IMG/VR virus record: IMGVR_UViG_3300043786_000470
Span: 1-40,658 of that record
Reading direction: 5' to 3' (one strand)
DNA: 40,658 nucleotides
From: a virus
Within the stretch, counting starts at the first letter, position 1; every line of letters begins with the position of its first letter. Shown here piece after piece: positions 8,817 to 24,433 of the stretch. The translations under genes and the position numbers were made by a program. A model generated the notes under the pieces. That model worked only from the letters and a program-made list of their open reading frames with translations. It did not search any database and was not told where the DNA came from.

Positions 8817-9104
8817 TTAATTTATAATTTGATTTATAATTTTCAAAGATAAATTTGTGACCGTGTCACCGTCCGTGCTTTTATACAACCGATAAGCAAT
8901 AGTTAACATTCGTCCTTTGTCCATTGACTCAATAGGCGGCTTCCCGTTTGGAAGTAATGGCTCAAGATAAAACTTTAATAATGCAATTTTGCTATTTAAA
9001 CCGTCGGAAAATCTGATCGGCTTCGGGTAAGTTTTAGCAATCCTTTCAATTTCCTTCCAAGTGCTTATCTCAATTCCGTCGATTAATTCACTATTTCTTT
9101 TCAT
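8817..9104 (-). CDS. hypothetical protein, last gene of the minus unit
   Basis: 95 aa from ATG at 9104 (MKRNSELIDG). The reading frame extends to a TTG at 9134, but the ATG is preferred because it reduces the overlap with the resolvase gene to 14 bases. Mostly helical, with a middle part FSDGLNSKIALLKFYLEPLL. No family is recognised. It follows a RuvC-like gene and is the distal gene of the minus unit. Confidence 0.55.
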   Translation of the reverse strand: MKRNSELIDGIEISTWKEIERIAKTYPKPIRFSDGLNSKIALLKFYLEPLLPNGKPPIESMDKGRMLTIAYRLYKSTDGDTVTNLSLKIINQIIN

Positions 9105-9579
9105 GTTTTTGGTAATTTTTAGCCTGTAAAGCAAGAGTAAAACAATCGATTTCGTCCTGACTTATTTTGGCAGTTTTAAAATTTGGTTCAAACTTGTAAC
9201 CTTCGCTTTGGAAGATTTTTAAAAATATTTCTTTTCCCCATTTCTTCCCCTTTTGCTCAGGGCTTATGTTGTAACCCTCGTAACCATTTTCCTTAATCCA
9301 TTCATAGGCAATACGACTTGCACCTTGATTCATGCCCACGTTTCGGGACATACGGGAAAGGATAGCGCGATTAATAGATGAATTAAAGGTTACGTTTTGA
9401 AGGCTGGAATCTTCCACCATTACAACGGGGTTTTCATATTGCGCCCACTTTGGAACATCAAGGATAAAATCCACGAACCTTTTATATTTCGTGAATTTTA
9501 CCTCTTTGTTTGATTGAATAATGCAAGCCGCCATTCCGTTTATCCTTATTGCTGGGTCAACCCCGATGTATGTCCTCAA
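9091..9579 (-). CDS. RuvC-like Holliday junction resolvase
   Basis: 162 aa. The acidic residues of the RuvC/RNase H fold are in place: D8 in IGVDPA, E56 in VVMVEDSS, and D142/D145 in SQDEIDCFTLA, with spacing close to RuvC (D7, E66, D138, D141). Such phage enzymes resolve branched replication and recombination intermediates before packaging. The start is unusual: the frame begins with TTG, which overlaps the stop of the upstream gene as TTGA, and the conserved first strand (TYIGVD) begins three codons later, so no later start is possible. Translation is probably coupled to the membrane protein gene upstream. Confidence 0.82.
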   Translation of the reverse strand: MRTYIGVDPAIRINGMAACIIQSNKEVKFTKYKRFVDFILDVPKWAQYENPVVMVEDSSLQNVTFNSSINRAILSRMSRNVGMNQGASRIAYEWIKENGYEGYNISPEQKGKKWGKEIFLKIFQSEGYKFEPNFKTAKISQDEIDCFTLALQAKNYQKHEKK

Positions 9580-15628: not shown

Positions 15629-16363
15629 TTATTTTTTGTTTAAAACGATTCTCCAGACCGCCAACTTTTGCGCAATGATAATTGCTTTCTTTTTTCCTTC
15701 TTCTTCCACCCGATGCAACTGGGTTTTAAAATCAATGTAACTGTCAGCTTGTATCTTTTGTTTACTTGCAATGTCCTGAGCCTCTTCCCAAATGGCTCGT
15801 TTTTCCCCTTCGGCGTAACCAATTAACCCAGCCTCCATCGCTGCATCGTACCAATAGACGGGCACGTCTTCGTAGCTTTCACCCTTAAACCCTGAAAGCA
15901 TTTCGGGAAATTCTGCGTAAAACTTGCGCTTTGCTTCAACCTGTCTTTGTTCTTCTTCCATCTTTGCCCGTTTCTTTTCATCTTCCATATCAACGGTAAA
16001 ATAAACCTTTTGCCGCCAGTTGATATACGCGGTAAGGATTCGCCCAATAGCAGCCAAATCAACTTTGCCGTAAAGTTTATGATCATCAATGTTCAACTCT
16101 TGCCGTGCAAACTTTTCGAATGCCAGTTTAATTTCATCAACGGCAATTAATTTGTAAGTGGTAATAAACTGGGTCACCTCAACCAAATGTTCTGGACTTG
16201 CATCAATGCCGTACAGGGGAAGTATGTTTTTAACAACCTCGTTAATTTTGGGCAGGCTTTCAACGATACCCGTTTTAAAAAGTCTTTTTTCTCGATTGTC
16301 GATAACAAGTTGAATATCCTGTATCTTTTCCTCGATGTTCATTGCAATAGCTGGTAAATTCAT
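15629..16363 (-). CDS. hypothetical protein next to the replication initiator
   Basis: 244 aa. The N-terminal half is helical and ends in GKVDLAAIGRILTAYINWRQK (about 99-119); a charged coiled segment follows (about 127-150, EDEKKRAKMEEEQRQVEAKR), then a C-terminal helical part. It starts 13 bases after the initiator gene, so both are likely made from one mRNA. Position suggests a replication partner such as a helicase loader, but no Walker motifs are seen, so an ATPase role is excluded. Confidence 0.5.
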   Translation of the reverse strand: MNLPAIAMNIEEKIQDIQLVIDNREKRLFKTGIVESLPKINEVVKNILPLYGIDASPEHLVEVTQFITTYKLIAVDEIKLAFEKFARQELNIDDHKLYGKVDLAAIGRILTAYINWRQKVYFTVDMEDEKKRAKMEEEQRQVEAKRKFYAEFPEMLSGFKGESYEDVPVYWYDAAMEAGLIGYAEGEKRAIWEEAQDIASKQKIQADSYIDFKTQLHRVEEEGKKKAIIIAQKLAVWRIVLNKK

Positions 16364-16375
16364 ATACGTTGGTTT

Positions 16376-17359
16376 TTATTGTGTTTGATATTTCTTCATC
16401 GCCTCAGCCAAAAGCCTGTCAACTTCATCGTCATACGCCTTTTTCTTTGCAGCTGGTGAAGACGTTTGGTAAGCCGTGTATATTTTTCCCGCCTGTCCGT
16501 ATAAAATGGCTGGGGTGAAATTGGCTTTTAACCATTTGTCAGGCAAAGACCAGGCGGCTTGTAAAAATACTTTTAATGCTTCGGTTGTATCGTTATTCCT
16601 GTCAACTTTTTCAATCCAACGTAAAAGGTACACCATACCTCCAGCATCTTTGGGACTCATTATGTAATGACCCTTTTGATCCGTTGGATACGCCGCGCCT
16701 GATAACTGTTCAAAGGTTTGGCAGAACACGGTGAAAGCTTCGTATGTCGGATTGGGCTTGCGCTCGGCTTTGGGCTCGTCGGCTTTCTCTTTTTTCGGGC
16801 AATTTTTTTCTCTTTCTAAATGTGAGACTATACTAAAGGGATTAACCTTTTTATCACTTGTTTCACTTGTAACTTTTGTAAAATGAGAAAATTCATTTTT
16901 TTCTTCATCGGCTATAAATACTTTAGTATTTATATCTATACTATTATCTATTGTATTATTATTCTTAGTACTATTATATGTCGGATTTATTTCCGCTTTA
17001 AGTCGGATTTTTTTCCGAGTTGATTCGGATTTATTTCCGAGGTCTGTTTTTGAGCTATTCCAATTCTTACCTTTTTCTGTTATTAAGATACAATCTTTTT
17101 CCCCGAATTTTTGCCAATCAATAATTCCTTTAGATTGTAAAGACTTGTAAAGCCTATAAATAGTATCTGCCTTATCTGTTATTATTGGCATTTCATCAAT
17201 GGCTTTATTCCTACTTGCAAAAAACCAAGTTTGCCCGTTGACGTGTATTTGTTCCGCCCATGATGGAAGGGAGTAAATAAAACTAAACAAAGCGGCTTCG
17301 CTTAGGCTTAAATTCCATTCAATGCTATGAGTTTGGTCTATTGATATTGTGTATCTCAT
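16376..17359 (-). CDS. winged-helix replication initiator (DnaD/replisome organiser-like)
   Basis: 327 aa. Residues 1-95 look like a winged-helix DNA-binding domain (SEAALFSFIYSLP, then NKAIDEMPIITDKADTIYRL as recognition region, then SKGIIDWQKFGEKDCILITEKG as wing). Residues 100-190 are a low-complexity linker whose DNA contains three iterons and an AT-rich tract. Residues 200-327 form a helical C-terminal domain (TYEAFTVFCQTFEQL to EVDRLLAEAMKKY). This plan, binding domain plus origin inside the linker plus partner-binding domain, matches lambda O and Gram-positive phage replisome organisers. It would bind the iterons and recruit the host helicase. Confidence 0.7.
   Translation of the reverse strand: MRYTISIDQTHSIEWNLSLSEAALFSFIYSLPSWAEQIHVNGQTWFFASRNKAIDEMPIITDKADTIYRLYKSLQSKGIIDWQKFGEKDCILITEKGKNWNSSKTDLGNKSESTRKKIRLKAEINPTYNSTKNNNTIDNSIDINTKVFIADEEKNEFSHFTKVTSETSDKKVNPFSIVSHLEREKNCPKKEKADEPKAERKPNPTYEAFTVFCQTFEQLSGAAYPTDQKGHYIMSPKDAGGMVYLLRWIEKVDRNNDTTEALKVFLQAAWSLPDKWLKANFTPAILYGQAGKIYTAYQTSSPAAKKKAYDDEVDRLLAEAMKKYQTQ
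16908..16980. other. AT-rich tract beside the iterons, candidate unwinding element
   Basis: About 70 bases made almost wholly of A and T, with repeats such as TACTATTAT, lie directly beside the iterons and encode the Asn/Ile/Thr/Asp-rich linker of the initiator. Together with the iterons this looks like an origin with a DNA unwinding element. Confidence 0.6.
16981..17040. other. three iterons, candidate replication origin
   Basis: TCGGATTTATTTCCG at 16981, TCGGATTTTTTTCCG at 17003 and TCGGATTTATTTCCG at 17025 are spaced exactly 22 bp apart (about two helical turns). Each has arms CGGA and TCCG around a 6-bp centre. They lie within the initiator gene, over codons for about residues 107-127. 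Spacing that is not a multiple of 3 means the copies fall in different reading frames, so they are conserved as DNA, not as protein repeats. Confidence 0.8.
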
Positions 17360-17360
17360 T

Positions 17361-17843
17361 TTAGTCTATTTTATTAAGGTTTGCAAATTCTCCATGATAT
17401 TTTATAGCAGCCTCGTTATAAATTTTAGCAGCATCAATAGCATTATTAAAAGAACCAAGATGATAAGAAATATTATTGCTTCTTATTCTTGATTCAAATA
17501 CTTTATTATTTTTATGCCATGAAACACCCCTAAATCCTGTTTTATTACTAATAGATAATTTTTGATTTTTAATATTATCAGCATGAGTGCAATTTCTTAA
17601 ATTAACCTTTCTGTTATCTAATGTTAATCCATTAATATGGTCAACAACTAATCCTTTTATTGAATTCATTATTACGCGATGCATCAATAAACATCCAGCA
17701 TATTTTTTATTAATTCTTTCGTTTCTTACAGCGTAAAATTTACCATTTAAATTATTTGCATACCACTTCCATTGGTTCAAATAATCAAACATATCATCGT
17801 CAACGATGGCAACTTTTCCTTGTGTTAATTTAATTTCTTTCAT
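17361..17843 (-). CDS. HNH homing endonuclease with AP2 DNA-binding domain
   Basis: 160 aa. The HNH part has H55 (LLMHRVIM), D68-H69-x-N71 (VVDHINGLTLDN), then N83..N90 (NLRNCTHADNIKNQ). The AP2 domain follows (about 102-155): GFRGVSWHKN, then SYHLGSFNNAIDAAKIYNEAA. This is the usual layout of free-standing phage homing endonucleases. It starts as ATGA overlapping the upstream stop and ends 1 base before the initiator start, so it is inserted cleanly into the operon. Its DNA is AT-richer than the neighbours, a sign of mobile origin. It could cut initiator-region DNA of competing phages. Confidence 0.9.
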   Translation of the reverse strand: MKEIKLTQGKVAIVDDDMFDYLNQWKWYANNLNGKFYAVRNERINKKYAGCLLMHRVIMNSIKGLVVDHINGLTLDNRKVNLRNCTHADNIKNQKLSISNKTGFRGVSWHKNNKVFESRIRSNNISYHLGSFNNAIDAAKIYNEAAIKYHGEFANLNKID

Positions 17844-18517: not shown

Positions 18518-19219
18518 ATGAACTACTTGATTATAACCTCAATTACTGGAAACAAAGACGTACTGGTTGACCCTAATACGACCTTTGATAATTGTACCTA
18601 TGTTGCTTTTGTCGATGAAGTTAACCATGACCTAAATGTTTGGAATCAAGTACAGAATCATCAGTTTAGCATGATTGACCCATTGAAGCATAGACGTAAT
18701 GCGAAGGCTGAAAAAATACTTTGCATTCCACAGGCTTTAAAGATTGACTTTGATTATATCATTTGGCATGACGGGACGCATCAACTGGCAATTCACCCCG
18801 AAGATATTATTAAGGAATACGGCGACGCTGATTTGTATGTTTTCCGTCACGCTCAAAGACGTTGTTTATACCAAGAAATAGCCGCCGTGCTTGAGGGAAA
18901 GTTAGACAATGAAGACCTTGTAAAAAGTCAAATGGAATTTTACCAGCGCGTTGGAATGCCGCCTTATTTTGGGCTATATGAAATGGGGTGCTATATCAGA
19001 AAGGTGAATCAAATTACGATTGATTTTGGTTTGGCTTGGTTTGAACAAGTATGCAAGTTTTCCAGCCGTGATCAGATTTCTTTTCCTTTTGTTCTTTGGA
19101 ACTACGAAGAAAAAATAAAGGTTGCAATCTTAAAAGGCAACTGTTCAAAATATATCGGGACGCCGTTTGAAAACGAGGGCAATAAATATTTTATAAACCA
19201 TGCAAACCACATCAAATAA
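18518..19219 (+). CDS. TOD1/MUCI70 (DUF616)-like glycosyltransferase
   Basis: 233 aa. It resembles the DUF616/TOD1 family: an N-terminal Rossmann-like strand (MNYLIITSITGNKD), LKHRRNAKAEKILCIPQAL (about 56-74), the acceptor motif YIIWHDGTHQL (about 80-90), FRHAQRRCLYQEIAAVLEGK (about 109-128) and GLYEMGCYIRK. D85 in the WHDGT motif could bind metal/sugar nucleotide. It is the first gene of the plus unit and its stop directly abuts the aminotransferase start (TAAATG). It likely transfers a sugar onto a phage or host glycan. Confidence 0.65.
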   Translation: MNYLIITSITGNKDVLVDPNTTFDNCTYVAFVDEVNHDLNVWNQVQNHQFSMIDPLKHRRNAKAEKILCIPQALKIDFDYIIWHDGTHQLAIHPEDIIKEYGDADLYVFRHAQRRCLYQEIAAVLEGKLDNEDLVKSQMEFYQRVGMPPYFGLYEMGCYIRKVNQITIDFGLAWFEQVCKFSSRDQISFPFVLWNYEEKIKVAILKGNCSKYIGTPFENEGNKYFINHANHIK

Positions 19220-20329
19220 ATGATACCATTATTTAAAGTAGCAATGAATCCAGAGGCATCAAAAGCCGTGGAAAAAGTTTTATTTTCGGGCTTTATCGGT
19301 CAAGGGGAAGTGGTGGAGGAATTTGAACGCCAATTAAAACAAAGCTTCAATAATCCTTACCTTGTTACCGTTAACTCTGGAACATCAGCCTTAATATTGG
19401 CATTGAGGCTTATTAAGGATAAACACCCCGAAAAGAAATACATTATATCAACTCCGTTGACTTGCACGGCGACCAACTGGGCAATACTTGCGGCTGGGTT
19501 TGAAATCATTTGGGCAGATATTGACCCGAACACTTTAAATATTTGTCCCTTATCGGTGGCAAAATCTGTTACTCCTTTGGTTGCCGCGGTTATGGTTGTT
19601 CATTGGGGAGGTGCAGCAGCAGACGTAAAGAAAATAAAGTCATTAACGGGACTTGATATTATCGAAGATTGTGCGCACGCCTTCGGTTCATACTATGAAC
19701 TCCCAGCCACTAAAGATGAAAGTACGTTGGTCGGCAACTCAGGAAATTACTGCTGCTTTTCCTTTCAAGCGATAAAGCACCTTACCACGGGTGACGGTGG
19801 ATTGTTGATTTTACCAAATGAAGAAGAATATAAAAAGGCAAAGTTACTTCGTTGGTATGGCATTGACCGTGAAGGTGACAGAAAGGATTTTAGATGCGAA
19901 GCACCGATAAACGATTGGGGTTATAAGTTTCATATGAACGACATAAACGCCGCCATCGGGATTGAGAATTTTAAAATATTTGGGGATAACGTCAGAAGAC
20001 ACCAAAATAATGCTGGGTTTTATGACTGGTGGTTAAATGAAAATAGTAGGTTTATAACCCCTTTATATTTTGACGAAGGCTCATCATATTGGATATATTC
20101 CATTCTGGTTGAGGACAGGGATAATTTTCAAAGGGCAATGAAAGACCGTGGCGTAATGACTTCTCAGGTACATGAGCGGAACGATTTACACCCGTGCGTA
20201 AAGCAATTTAAAACAGAACTACCAAACATTGAACAAGTGATTGGCAATTTGTCGAGCCTTCCAGTTGGTTGGTGGGTGACGGACGAGGACAGGGAATATA
20301 TTGTTAAACAGATAAAAAAGGGTTGGTGA
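19220..20329 (+). CDS. DegT/DnrJ/EryC1/StrS sugar aminotransferase
   Basis: 369 aa, full length for the family. The PLP-binding lysine is K186 in CFSFQAIKHLTTGDGG; D150 and H153 in IIEDCAHAFGS contact the cofactor; NSGTSALILALRL (about 52-64) is the phosphate-binding part. It makes aminosugars from a keto-sugar nucleotide (UDP- or dTDP-linked), with glutamate as usual donor. No partner dehydratase is seen in the phage, so the substrate would come from the host. Its stop TGA overlaps the SSB start as TGATG. Flanked by glycosyltransferase-like genes, it belongs to a glycan-modifying set. Confidence 0.92.
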   Translation: MIPLFKVAMNPEASKAVEKVLFSGFIGQGEVVEEFERQLKQSFNNPYLVTVNSGTSALILALRLIKDKHPEKKYIISTPLTCTATNWAILAAGFEIIWADIDPNTLNICPLSVAKSVTPLVAAVMVVHWGGAAADVKKIKSLTGLDIIEDCAHAFGSYYELPATKDESTLVGNSGNYCCFSFQAIKHLTTGDGGLLILPNEEEYKKAKLLRWYGIDREGDRKDFRCEAPINDWGYKFHMNDINAAIGIENFKIFGDNVRRHQNNAGFYDWWLNENSRFITPLYFDEGSSYWIYSILVEDRDNFQRAMKDRGVMTSQVHERNDLHPCVKQFKTELPNIEQVIGNLSSLPVGWWVTDEDREYIVKQIKKGW

Positions 20330-20712
20330 TGATTAAATTAATTGTAAGTGGTCGCGTCGGTCAGGACGCTGAGGTAAAAAATGTAGGCGATAATACCGTT
20401 TGTTCTTTTTCCGTAGCACACACGGAAAAGATTTACGGTGCAACTCCATCGGAAAAGACTATTTGGGTTACTTGCTCAATTTGGGGTGAACGTGGTGTCA
20501 AACTTGCGCCTCATATTGTAAAAGGTACATTCGTGGTCGTGGAAGGAACAGGCGGGGTGAATGGATACCTAAACAAGAATACTGGAGCAGCCGAAGCTGT
20601 TATTAGGTGTATGGTAAATTCCCTTGAATTTGGAGGCAAGCCAACAACTGGGGAAAATCCAAAGGTAACAGAATCAACGACATTTAAATCAGAATCAGAA
20701 TTTCCTTTTTAA
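20329..20712 (+). CDS. ssb: single-stranded DNA-binding protein
   Basis: 127 aa from ATG at 20329; an earlier TTG at 20323 is in frame, but the ATG overlaps the previous stop and matches the family's start (MIKLIVSGRVGQDAEV). It has the bacterial OB fold: VCSFSVAHTEK, TIWVTCSIWGERGVKLAPHIVKG and GTFVVVEGTGGVNGYLNK. The C-terminus is Ser/Thr-rich and ends SEFPF, close to the acidic tip (DDIPF) that recruits host repair and replication proteins. It is embedded in the sugar gene set, away from the replication unit. Confidence 0.9.
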   Translation: MIKLIVSGRVGQDAEVKNVGDNTVCSFSVAHTEKIYGATPSEKTIWVTCSIWGERGVKLAPHIVKGTFVVVEGTGGVNGYLNKNTGAAEAVIRCMVNSLEFGGKPTTGENPKVTESTTFKSESEFPF

Positions 20713-20713
20713 T

Positions 20714-20896
20714 ATGAATGCTGAAAGAAAAAAAGAATACAGGTTAACCATAAGCGATTATCAAAGAAAAAAGCATTTGGAATATCTCAGAAATAAATAC
20801 AATGCTTTATCACCAGAGAAAAAGGCTGAATTGCTTGCTAAAAGAAAAGCAAATTATCAAGCAAACAAACAAAAAAAGATTAATGGCATATTTTAA
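20714..20896 (+). CDS. Lys/Arg-rich small basic protein
   Basis: 60 aa, largely charged helix: ERKKEYRLTISDYQRKKHLE, then LSPEKKAELLAKRKANYQAN. It resembles the 90-aa protein at 12165 (shared Tyr/Lys spacing and an SPEKKA/TPEEKA motif). Probably binds nucleic acid. Starts 1 base after the SSB stop and overlaps the next gene by 14 bases. Confidence 0.6.
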   Translation: MNAERKKEYRLTISDYQRKKHLEYLRNKYNALSPEKKAELLAKRKANYQANKQKKINGIF

Positions 20897-21422
20897 CTAC
20901 GATATACCATCAAGTTATTATAAAAATAACATCGGTAAGACGTTATATAACACGGTGCTTACAATGAAGCCCAATATTATCATTGAGTTTGGAACATTGC
21001 ACGGTTATTCAGCCGTTGCAATGGCTCAAGCGTTAAGGGAATTAGACAGTGATGGTAAAATAATTTGTTACGATTTATGGAAAAAATACCCTTACAAAAA
21101 TGCTTCAATGGAAAGCACTAAGTCAACTATATATTCCTTAGGGTTGATGAAATACGTTGAATTAATTGAAATGGACTTTTACAACTGGATTCCACAACCT
21201 TTTGACTTGATGCACTTTGATATAAGTAACCATGCGGGGCATTTAAAGTATTTAAAAAACTTAATGGACGGATGGATGCACAAAGGGACAGTCTTGTTTG
21301 AAGGTGGTAGTAAAGAAAGGGACAAGGTCGAATGGATGAAAGATTTTCAACCTATCAATTCATCGGGTATTAACTTTATTACCATTAACGAGGACTTTCC
21401 TTCTTTATCCTTAATGCTATGA
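20883..21422 (+). CDS. class I SAM-dependent methyltransferase (Methyltransf_24-like)
   Basis: 179 aa from ATG at 20883 (MAYFNYDIPSS); an open frame reaches back to 20802 inside the basic-protein gene, but the later start fits the fold and spacing. Motif I is IIEFGTLHGYSAVAMA (about 32-47), with an acidic end of strand 2 in GKIICYDLW (about 58-66) and FDLMHFDIS (about 107-115). Such enzymes are often found beside glycosyltransferases and O-methylate sugars. The substrate cannot be read from sequence. It overlaps the next gene by ATGA. Confidence 0.72.
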   Translation: MAYFNYDIPSSYYKNNIGKTLYNTVLTMKPNIIIEFGTLHGYSAVAMAQALRELDSDGKIICYDLWKKYPYKNASMESTKSTIYSLGLMKYVELIEMDFYNWIPQPFDLMHFDISNHAGHLKYLKNLMDGWMHKGTVLFEGGSKERDKVEWMKDFQPINSSGINFITINEDFPSLSLML

Positions 21423-22123
21423 GGTTAGCCGTTGTCGCCTCAGGTTGGCACTTTCCTTTAGATTTTTATGAATCAGTTGCACGGCAAATCGTTGTCAAAG
21501 ATTGGGAGTACGATTTATTTTGCATCTCACACCGTGACCCAAAGTATTCAAAGGAGGAAAAAAAGGGATTGGCATTAAAGGAATTGGATACTATTCTTTA
21601 TAAAGAAATTGCAACCATTGAGCAGATTAAACAACTGGGCTGGAATTACAAAGAATACCCGAACACGGTTGGCGATTGGGGTTGTTCAAATCAATGGCTG
21701 GAGGAACACAATTTTACGGAATACGATTTGCTTCTTTTTACGCATGATGACAATTTTATTCATAACTACAAATGGTTTGGGAACATCATTCACTTTATGG
21801 ACGGCGATTGGGAAATCCTTTCCAATTCCTGTGGCGATCCTGTTGGTTGGCTTCGGGGAAGTTGCGAGTTCTTTAAGCCTTCTTTACTACAAAAGATTGG
21901 CGGCAAGTTTGATTTATCATTGGTGACCTTAAACAGGGAAGAAGAAGTTTATTCACCAGATAAATGGGTTGATATTTTTGATTGGAATAATACAGTACAC
22001 CCGTTGATGAAGTTTATATCGGAAAACAAAATAGTAGTTGGGCATCTGTCAAACACGTACAGGCATTCAATGTTTGTGTCCGAGGGTGAACGTGGATTTA
22101 TTTCCCCAATTTTAAAAAAATAA
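21419..22123 (+). CDS. putative glycosyltransferase (GT-A-like)
   Basis: 234 aa. An N-terminal strand-helix unit (MRLAVVASGWHFPLDFYESV) precedes DLLLFTHDDNFIHN (about 104-117), where HDDN is a candidate DxD-type metal motif. LRGSCEFFKPSLLQKIGGKFD is typical of the acceptor half of GT-A enzymes. Later parts are Trp/Asp-rich. It overlaps the methyltransferase by ATGA. Probably adds a sugar to the same glycan as its neighbours. Confidence 0.6.
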   Translation: MRLAVVASGWHFPLDFYESVARQIVVKDWEYDLFCISHRDPKYSKEEKKGLALKELDTILYKEIATIEQIKQLGWNYKEYPNTVGDWGCSNQWLEEHNFTEYDLLLFTHDDNFIHNYKWFGNIIHFMDGDWEILSNSCGDPVGWLRGSCEFFKPSLLQKIGGKFDLSLVTLNREEEVYSPDKWVDIFDWNNTVHPLMKFISENKIVVGHLSNTYRHSMFVSEGERGFISPILKK

Positions 22124-22126
22124 TAT

Positions 22127-22134
22127 TATATTTG
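22127..22134 (+). promoter_or_regulatory. TAnnTTTG -7 box, internal promoter
   Basis: TATATTTG, a perfect -7 consensus, lies in a gap of 29 bases between genes, 18 bases before the ATG at 22153. It is followed by an A-rich leader. It could give separate expression of the small gene and those after it. Confidence 0.6.
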
Positions 22135-22152
22135 TATAATAATTTAAAAAAA

Positions 22153-22323
22153 ATGAACACAACAAAACCTCAAGAAATGTACGGGGTAACCTTTCGAAAC
22201 AAGGTTATAAGAGAAAGGCTGCTGGATATTCAATTTGATTTATGGAAGGCAACAGGGAAAAAGCACTCAATGGAAGCAGTCCTTGAAGTCTTATTGAATA
22301 CCTACAAAAGTATAAATAAATGA
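22153..22323 (+). CDS. small ribbon-helix-helix-like protein
   Basis: 56 aa from ATG at 22153 (MNTTKPQEMYGVTF); a frame beginning at 22132 lies within the promoter and is less likely. A strand (MYGVTFRN) then helix-turn-helix-like parts (IRERLLDIQFDLWKATGKKH, SMEAVLEVLLNTY) fit a short ribbon-helix-helix regulator. Having its own promoter supports a regulatory role, possibly at the conserved operators. It overlaps the next gene by ATGA. Confidence 0.45.
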   Translation: MNTTKPQEMYGVTFRNKVIRERLLDIQFDLWKATGKKHSMEAVLEVLLNTYKSINK

Positions 22324-23324
22324 GGATTGGCATAGTTTGTAATTTAAGCAGCCCAACCACCGACTACTATCGCACGGTGAACCCATTTATTAGGCTTCGC
22401 GATATTTTCCCTCAGTATGCCATTAAAATGATTAACCCCGATACCGTTAAGTGGTATGATTTTTATGACGTCGATGTTGTTATCTTCCAGCGTGCCAATG
22501 GTAACGATTTACTTGGAATGATTAACGAGGTCAAGCGAATGGGTAAAAAGATTATCTTAGACCATGACGACCTATTACACGAGGTTAGTGCAGCCAACCC
22601 AGCAAGTCAACATTTTAACAAGCCTCAGGTAAAAGAATCAGTCGAAAAGGCTTTCAAATACGCTGATTGGGTTATGACCTCAACACCGTACCTAAAAGAA
22701 TTTTACTCCCAGTTTTTTGACAAAGATAAAATTACCGTTGTTCCCAACGCCATTGACTTTACCGTTACACCGATGCAGCCTGTAAAACGGGATAAGTTGA
22801 TGGACGCAAAAAAACGAGTTATGTGGCGCGGATCTCAAACGCACCTTGAAGACCTTGCAACGGTTAAAAACTTTTGGATTGAGTTACAAAAAAACGACAA
22901 GGTTGAATTAGGAATGGTTGGTTTAGCTGATTGGCTGGGGAAAACATTGTACCCTAAAGCAATTATTGTGCCGTGGAATAATTCATTGTTCCAATACTTT
23001 GAAATGGTTAAACACTCAGCGCCACACTATGGCGTATTCCCTTTAACGATTGACAATTTTAATCAAGCGAAGTCAAATAATTTTGCGATGGAAATGTTAG
23101 TTGCTGGTTGCATTTCTTACGCGCCTGAGGAAATCAAGGAGTTTAATATTCCAGGGGTGCGGACATATAAAAACGAATTAGATTTAATCCACAAATTTAC
23201 TAAGGCTTTAGACAAAGATGATGCGTACTTTGTTGACTTAGAGGCTGGACGCAAATGGCTAAAGGAAGAAAGGGACTTGGTTAAAGTGAATGAATTAAGG
23301 ATTAACGTATTAAACGCTATATGA
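22320..23324 (+). CDS. glycosyltransferase, GT-B/GT4-like
   Basis: 334 aa. N-terminal Rossmann unit MRIGIVCNLSSPTTDYYRTV; ILDHDDLLHEV (about 79-89) and NAIDFTVTP (about 138-146, following ITVVPN) are the linker and start of the second domain, as in group-1 glycosyltransferases. KKRVMWRGSQTHLEDL resembles the G.....K.l..L part; the conserved EMLVAGC with preceding NFAMEM (about 255-265) is the sugar-nucleotide-binding E..E/A.A region. It would transfer a sugar from a nucleotide donor. It overlaps both neighbours by ATGA. Confidence 0.75.
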   Translation: MRIGIVCNLSSPTTDYYRTVNPFIRLRDIFPQYAIKMINPDTVKWYDFYDVDVVIFQRANGNDLLGMINEVKRMGKKIILDHDDLLHEVSAANPASQHFNKPQVKESVEKAFKYADWVMTSTPYLKEFYSQFFDKDKITVVPNAIDFTVTPMQPVKRDKLMDAKKRVMWRGSQTHLEDLATVKNFWIELQKNDKVELGMVGLADWLGKTLYPKAIIVPWNNSLFQYFEMVKHSAPHYGVFPLTIDNFNQAKSNNFAMEMLVAGCISYAPEEIKEFNIPGVRTYKNELDLIHKFTKALDKDDAYFVDLEAGRKWLKEERDLVKVNELRINVLNAI

Positions 23325-24433
23325 AATTAAAGGATATAAAACCAAACCCAAACAACCCACGGGTTCTCAGAGATGACAAGTTTCAAAAGCTAAAGCAAAG
23401 TATCAAGGAGTTTCCAAAGATGCTTTCCCTTCGCCCAATGGTCATTGATGAAAACAACGTGGTTCTTGGTGGTAACATGAGACTCAGGGCTTTACAAGAA
23501 CTTGGATTTAATGACATTGACGAGGCATGGGTAAAACGAAGCAGCGATTTAACCGAGGAGGAAAAGAAGCGGTTTATCATTGCTGACAATGTGGCTTTTG
23601 GTGAATGGGACTGGGACACACTTGCGAACGATTGGGACGTGGTTGACTTGGAGGCATGGGGTTTGGAGATACCGCAGTTTGACACGGTGGAGGAACAAGA
23701 GGCAAGTGAGGACGATTACGAAGTACCTGAGGGAGGCATTGAAACGGACATTGTCATTGGTGACTTGTTTGAAATTGGGGAGCATCGTTTACTTTGTGGA
23801 GATAGCACGGACTCGGACGCGGTGGCACGGTTGATGAACGGGGAAAAGGCGGACATGGTATTTACAGACCCGCCGTATGGAATTGATTGGAATACGGATT
23901 ATACGCGTTTTACGGGCGGATTAATACCAAGTGAAAATAAATATAATAAAATACATGATGACGAAAAAGCATTTGACCCTTCGTTCCTTTTAGCCACTCA
24001 TGAAAATTGTTTATTTTTTGGGGCTAACTGTTTTAGCGATAAGTTACCAAAAGGAAATTGGATTGTATGGGACAAAAGATTTGAAAACGGCAAAGCCTTT
24101 TTGGCTGATGCAGAAGTCGCTTGGTATAACGGAAGCGGAGCGGTTTATATAATTGCTGAAACGCACCAAGGATTTGTAAGTAGCGATAAAAAAAGGTTTC
24201 ACCCAACACAAAAGCCTATTAAAGTTTTGGAAAAGATATTTGAAAAGATAAACGCTCCTAATTTATTATTAGACCCTTATCTCGGCAGCGGTTCAACAAT
24301 GGTTGCCGCGCACCAACTTAAACGCCGTTGTTTTGGTTTGGAGTTAGAACCAAAGTATTGCGCCGTTATCATTGACAGGATGCGTAAACTTGATTCATTA
24401 TTGATTATCAAGCGTAATGGCAAACAGATATAA
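23321..24433 (+). CDS. ParB-domain fused N4/N6 DNA methyltransferase
   Basis: 370 aa. Residues 1-110 are a ParB-like domain with DIKPNPNNPR and VLGGNMRLRAL (about 48-58). Residues 140-370 are a DNA methyltransferase: DPPYG (183-187), HPTQKP (294-299) and DPYLGSGST (318-326), in the order catalytic then SAM-binding, the beta class. This layout is common in phages and modifies adenine or cytosine in a fixed site. No cognate restriction enzyme is nearby, so it is an orphan, probably protecting phage DNA. It overlaps the upstream glycosyltransferase by ATGA. Confidence 0.9.
   Translation: MKLKDIKPNPNNPRVLRDDKFQKLKQSIKEFPKMLSLRPMVIDENNVVLGGNMRLRALQELGFNDIDEAWVKRSSDLTEEEKKRFIIADNVAFGEWDWDTLANDWDVVDLEAWGLEIPQFDTVEEQEASEDDYEVPEGGIETDIVIGDLFEIGEHRLLCGDSTDSDAVARLMNGEKADMVFTDPPYGIDWNTDYTRFTGGLIPSENKYNKIHDDEKAFDPSFLLATHENCLFFGANCFSDKLPKGNWIVWDKRFENGKAFLADAEVAWYNGSGAVYIIAETHQGFVSSDKKRFHPTQKPIKVLEKIFEKINAPNLLLDPYLGSGSTMVAAHQLKRRCFGLELEPKYCAVIIDRMRKLDSLLIIKRNGKQI

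Follow-up and report, generated by a model that had tools for sequence, protein, structure and literature searches.

The window analysed here is the whole 40,658-nt stretch of viral DNA held in IMG/VR record IMGVR_UViG_3300043786_000470. On its minus strand lies a gene for a putative replication initiator of three parts, set between a gene for a helical protein and a free-standing endonuclease gene (Table 1). AlphaFold models residues 1–102 of the initiator as a confident winged-helix domain (wHTH), with pLDDT of about 80–92 over most of its length, and residues 103–202 as a disordered linker. The N-terminal part is matched by PHROG 11527/25527. The best PDB fold matches to the wHTH found by Foldseek are 4pql (E = 7.8e-4) and 4pt7 (E = 2.2e-3), with probability 1.00 and TM-scores of only 0.44–0.49 by target length; both are DNA-binding/initiator N-domains, which we take to be those of the RepA_N family. 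Within the putative recognition helix of this wHTH type, termed module A, residues D65, T66, Y68, and R69 are invariant. A PDB sequence search with the C-terminal domain returned no match; this domain is presumed to contact the host replisome or a helicase loader. In RepA_N initiators, the C-domain contacts DnaG.

The protein encoded by the next gene is a candidate helicase loader by its P-like position; sequence and fold searches with it gave nothing significant, and its structure model is poor. An HNH/AP2 gene such as the one directly upstream of the initiator is also found at −4/−5 nt in many relatives.

According to the preliminary description, the phage has no polymerase, primase, or helicase gene of its own and belongs to a Bacteroidota host. 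PHROG and Pfam scans of the main ORFs of the window bear out the former, since among replication proteins of this kind they recognised only an SSB. The latter is likely, to judge from similarity to phages of this phylum: the best terminase relatives are those of Riemerella phages (47%), and, among cultured phages whose host is known to belong to the Bacteroidota, the nearest wHTH is that of Flavobacterium phage FCL-2, at about 45% identity. A search of genome contigs with the initiator C-terminal domain found no relative; for this reason, no bacterial host is named. Elsewhere in the window, glycosyltransferase-like genes, an aminotransferase gene, the SSB gene, and a ParB/methyltransferase gene lie between the early and late regions (18518–24433), and positions 9091–9579 encode a 162-aa protein that starts with MRTYIGVDPAIRINGMA and is possibly a RuvC-like resolvase, with no match in Pfam or PHROG.

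Table 1. Positions of the features discussed; coordinates refer to the window except for the chimera loci
Feature	Position	Strand	Remarks
Initiator gene, 327 aa	16376..17359	-	From N- to C-terminus: wHTH, disordered linker, helical domain
wHTH (module A), residues 1–102	17054..17359	-	Putative origin-binding domain; from sequence and AlphaFold
C-terminal domain, residues 203–327	16376..16753	-	Conserved in relatives irrespective of their wHTH type
Iteron 1 (gene order)	17025..17040		TCGGAAATAAATCCGA on the minus strand
Iteron 2	17003..17018		TCGGAAAAAAATCCGA on the minus strand
Iteron 3	16981..16996		Minus-strand sequence GCGGAAATAAATCCGA, with one mismatch in an arm
AT-rich tract	16908..16980		Presumed DNA-unwinding element; 81% A+T
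Perfect inverted repeat	16913..16934		TATAAATACT-TT-AGTATTTATA; 10-bp arms, 2-nt loop; inside the AT-rich tract
Exchangeable cassette (wHTH, iterons, AT-rich tract)	16899..17359		DNA homology to relatives of other modules ends at the start codon and returns at about nt 461 of the gene or later
Next gene, 244 aa, helical	15629..16363	-	Follows the initiator gene in relatives
Free-standing HNH/AP2 endonuclease gene	17361..17843	-	Directly upstream of the initiator gene
wHTH-A::HNH chimera loci	L108, L146–L192 (e.g., L152:2213-2797)		L197–L199 in named Pseudomonas

Repeats inside the initiator gene

Exactly three copies of CGGATTTNTTTCCG occur in the record, at 16982–16995, 17004–17017, and 17026–17039, with a start-to-start spacing of 22 nt; there are none elsewhere. 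Two of the iterons have the full 16-bp palindrome TCGGA-N6-TCCGA, and the third has it with one mismatch in an arm. The array occupies nt 320–379 of the 984-nt initiator gene and encodes approximately residues 107–127, which the AlphaFold domain limits place in the linker. As 22 does not divide evenly by 3, the copies fall in three different reading frames and encode different peptides (LGNKSE, TRKKIR, and AEINPT). Moreover, the order of frames varies among phages (120, 010, 0120, 0010), which indicates that the DNA, and not the peptide, is what is conserved.

Synonymous recoding of the linker peptide with the phage's own codon use produced three CGGA-N6-TCCG sites in 0 of 200,000 sequences and two sites in 25. 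When the window is compared with its two closest full-length relatives (L004 and L127), 24 of 24 columns in the iteron arms and 41 of 42 in the cores are invariant, as are all 14 third codon positions within the cores; the corresponding figures are 44% for the spacers and 55% for third positions of the wHTH. Thus, the changes of frame, the recoding result, and the invariance of the arms relative to the spacers show that the iterons are selected as DNA. It could be argued that the linker is a repetitive protein segment of which the DNA repeats are a by-product, given that some of its peptides, NPT and NKSE among them, turn up repeatedly in the family. However, the copies stand in different frames, the frame order differs between phages, and the synonymous sites are invariant; the recoding and column tests refute this explanation, which we consider practically untenable.

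Beside the iterons lies the AT-rich tract, the A+T content of which, against 62% for the genome, falls within the top 1.3% of equal windows, although it is not the richest stretch. In most relatives with a module-A wHTH, an AT-rich tract is likewise placed after the last iteron. The inverted repeat inside the tract is partly retained in L004 and absent in L127. The preliminary description had reported three CGGA/TCCG iterons at regular 22-bp spacing within the linker of a winged-helix protein and next to an AT-rich tract, and had proposed that they are selected as DNA; these observations are all upheld by the present analysis.

Exchange of the wHTH together with its repeats

The module-A wHTH recurs with unrelated C-termini in phages of Flavobacterium, Pseudomonas, Mannheimia, Psychrobacter, and Pseudoalteromonas. 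Mannheimia phage 587AP2 has its module-A gene in the place of lambda O, the order being cI, HTH genes, module-A gene, P-like helicase loader, NinB, RusA, and Q. In Psychrobacter pOW20-A, the gene directly after the module-A gene encodes a DnaB helicase. The Pseudomonas-phage genes are annotated as replication or primosomal proteins, and several homologues match PHROGs for "replication initiation O-like" proteins. As judged by gene order, the module-A gene has the position of the lambda O gene in the Mannheimia and Psychrobacter relatives.

TCGGA-N6-TCCGA is found right after the wHTH in 3–7 copies in seven of the eight cases examined; the eighth, human-gut L037, has two degenerate copies. The wider census covers 112 loci with 53 distinct module-A wHTHs, many of which are close Pseudomonas relatives and therefore do not amount to 53 independent events; 49 of the 53 have at least three sites within 200 nt after the domain. 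The density of sites is 21.2 per kb in the linker vs. 0.028 per kb elsewhere, an enrichment of about 750-fold. The association of wHTH and iterons holds in separate branches of Flavobacterium, Pasteurellaceae, Psychrobacter, and Pseudoalteromonas phages. The scans of the collection were run with closer subsets of the divergent N-domains, and one that started from the N-domain of human-gut L037 yielded no relative. Across this census, the sequences show that the iterons track the wHTH and not the C-terminus.

Palindromic sites and a wHTH would also suit a repressor, and many of the Foldseek matches are to MarR- or Fur-type regulators; the sites might accordingly be operators, at which a transcription factor binds inside its own gene and regulates the early operon. 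In our opinion, this is improbable, because the sites lie about 320 nt into the coding region, the gene of relatives occupies the place of O, ahead of a helicase loader or DnaB, and 3–7 phased copies beside an AT-rich tract suit an origin better. The weaker fold matches include the centromere-binding proteins TubR, AspA, and that of pNOB8, as might be expected if the array served partition and not replication. No partner ParA or TubZ gene was recognised in the PHROG and Pfam scans, however; the ParB-like match at 23321–24433 belongs to the methyltransferase gene, and the homologues are located in replication operons. A centromere therefore appears very improbable.

Evidence of a complementary kind comes from proteins that share the other half of the initiator. 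For most of its relatives in IMG/VR, the match to the window protein is confined to the C-terminal half. Close relatives having the C-terminus and next gene of the window carry at least five other types of wHTH (B to F), and arrays of different sequence are found at the same place: GCGAAATCAACGAAAC with period 23 in type B, TACCAAACGGGCAAATGG with period 22 in type D, CCGACACGGTAAAAAT with period 16 in type E, and TTTAACGAAAACGTGAAA with period 23 in type F. The module C relatives (L009, L016, and L026) have no clear tandem array. DNA homology across differing types ends at the start codon and returns past the repeats, at about nt 414–546 of the gene. The wHTH is 88% identical within modules and 25% between them; for the C-terminal domain, the values are 87 and 84%, and for the next gene 79 and 76%, i.e., independent of the module. 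The binding of wHTH identity to type, its absence in the C-terminal domain and next gene, and the sharp edges together indicate that the wHTH and the iterons move as a single unit. Thus, the alignments show the wHTH and the putative origin being swapped between phages as one cassette, a point missed by the preliminary description.

The upstream HNH/AP2 endonuclease is a possible homing driver of this exchange. Its gene is not counted as a part of the cassette: co-inheritance is weak (66 vs. 58% identity, p = 0.03), and there are clear exceptions to its tracking of the cassette type (e.g., L012/L029 at 86%). Among the module-A loci, it should also be noted that L132, L137, and L140 have genes, related to the Mannheimia-phage type, that are truncated inside the linker with their iterons intact, and that L145:1501-1833 encodes a wHTH-A of 110 aa that stands alone and has no iterons; the ORF after it has a start resembling a lambda-O-type N-domain. 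The stand-alone protein could act as an origin blocker.

The comparison across relatives lends strong support to the earlier proposal that an origin lies within the initiator gene, and we regard it as highly probable that the segment delimited in Table 1 is an intragenic replication-origin cassette. We infer that the wHTH, probably dimeric, would bind each of the palindromic iterons, and that the bound units would be on the same face of the DNA, 22 bp being about two helical turns. Assembly of the initiator would then melt the adjacent AT-rich tract, and the C-terminal domain, probably together with the protein from the next gene, would bring in the host helicase and primase; this last step is proposed because the phage itself yielded no helicase, primase, or polymerase. 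GC skew tracks gene direction in the window, and third-codon-position skew has no consistent switch at 17 kb; because skew follows the direction of transcription, it neither supports nor refutes an origin there.

Outside lambda-like phages and some plasmids, few origins have, to our knowledge, been identified in phages known from metagenomes alone. A single wHTH family appears to predict the origin motif, TCGGA-N6-TCCGA with a period of about 22 bp, in both Bacteroidota and gammaproteobacterial phages, so that such origins may be readable from sequence. The putative origin and the domain predicted to recognise it travel together as a cassette, while the presumed host-facing half stays.

Chimeras of the wHTH with an HNH nuclease

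L108, a wHTH-A match that lacks iterons, is a fusion with an HNH nuclease (PF01844, E = 9.5e-11). A scan with the HNH half found 51 loci, 46 of which encode a wHTH-A::HNH chimera in Pseudomonas phages or prophages; relatives of the HNH half are present in the genomes of Pseudomonas mediterranea, P. fluorescens, and P. botevensis. Nearly all of the chimeras adjoin an initiator that has the Pseudomonas C-domain and a different wHTH, and the neighbouring initiators that were inspected have their own GGTGCA-N5-TGCACC-like repeats. The chimera is under purifying selection in both halves (dN/dS of 0.10 in the wHTH and 0.075 in the HNH), and the recognition-helix residues are kept in 45 of 46 chimeras.

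The module-A array is present in none of the 22 chimera records searched, which may be fragments (one of them has a lone site), vs. 21 of 21 records of module-A wHTH initiators, which have 3–5 exact sites each. In part, this contrast is to be expected, as every phage seems to have a single initiator. Together with the analogy to Odn of phage ICP1, it suggests that the chimera is an origin-directed nuclease acting against module-A competitors. We lean, with some reserve, towards a broader view in which the cassettes are contested between phages: Pseudomonas phages that have switched to another origin module would retain their former origin-binding domain, now fused to an HNH nuclease that cuts the origins of competitors bearing module A, and these nucleases would form a family independent of Odn. 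If this is true, the cassette of the window belongs to the wHTH/iteron family read by such nucleases, and the swapping of cassettes would be an escape route.

Comparison with known initiator systems

In lambda O/ori-lambda and in O of Stx phages, iterons and an AT tract likewise lie midway along the initiator gene (PMC7466680). The iterons of lambda have almost the same place within the gene, at nt 349–433 of the 900-nt O gene, as compared with nt 320–379 of 984 in the window. Further points of likeness are the N-terminal binding domain (putative in the window), the linker encoded by the origin, and the operon place before a P-like loader, which is held by the relative in 587AP2. The window differs in its iteron, TCGGA-N6-TCCGA with a 22-bp period, and in having a C-terminal domain and a next gene that are not of known type. 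At E values up to 1, Pfam reports neither PF04492 nor PF06970 in the window initiator, and PF04492 is also absent from its module-A relatives, whereas lambda O itself, used as a control, matches PF04492 at 5.7e-36. Between the N-domain profile and lambda O, hhalign gave no significant match. The label "lambda-O type" given earlier is thus apt for the plan (iterons and AT tract in the gene) but not for family membership (no PF04492). In the part of the account of Pseudomonas phage MD8 considered here, repeats are described inside the O-like gp56 of a phage without polymerase or primase genes; nothing is said there of a cassette, a census of iterons, or a chimera with a nuclease (PMC8508860).

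The RepA_N plasmid initiators, such as that of pSK41, have a wHTH N-domain, an origin (rep boxes) in the linker within rep, and a genus- or host-specific C-domain; the chimeric pPR9 is a natural swap of the N-domain plus origin in which the C-domain was kept (PMC5703833). The family of the window also has the origin-in-gene plan and a swappable N-domain with its array, but its initiator is without PF06970 and belongs to a phage, not a plasmid. By sequence, the window initiator follows a known plan, that of staphylococcal RepA_N and of lambda O, yet is a member of neither PF06970 nor PF04492.

In the RepA/ori modules of PLEs, the origin-binding domain and the origin co-vary and are swapped, and the C-terminus is conserved; in Odn, the weapon of their rival ICP1, an origin-binding domain is fused to a nuclease (PMC8263062). 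The PLE origin is intergenic, whereas the putative origin of the window is intragenic. In the literature covered, which is incomplete, origin-directed nucleases are named only for Vibrio cholerae/ICP1 phages. Odn joins a nuclease derived from a homing endonuclease to a RepA_N-type domain, while the Pseudomonas fusion joins wHTH-A to an HNH nuclease of PF01844. If the HNH chimeras do cut module-A origins, they would constitute a second instance, independent of the first, in which a phage has turned the origin-binding domain of a rival into a weapon.
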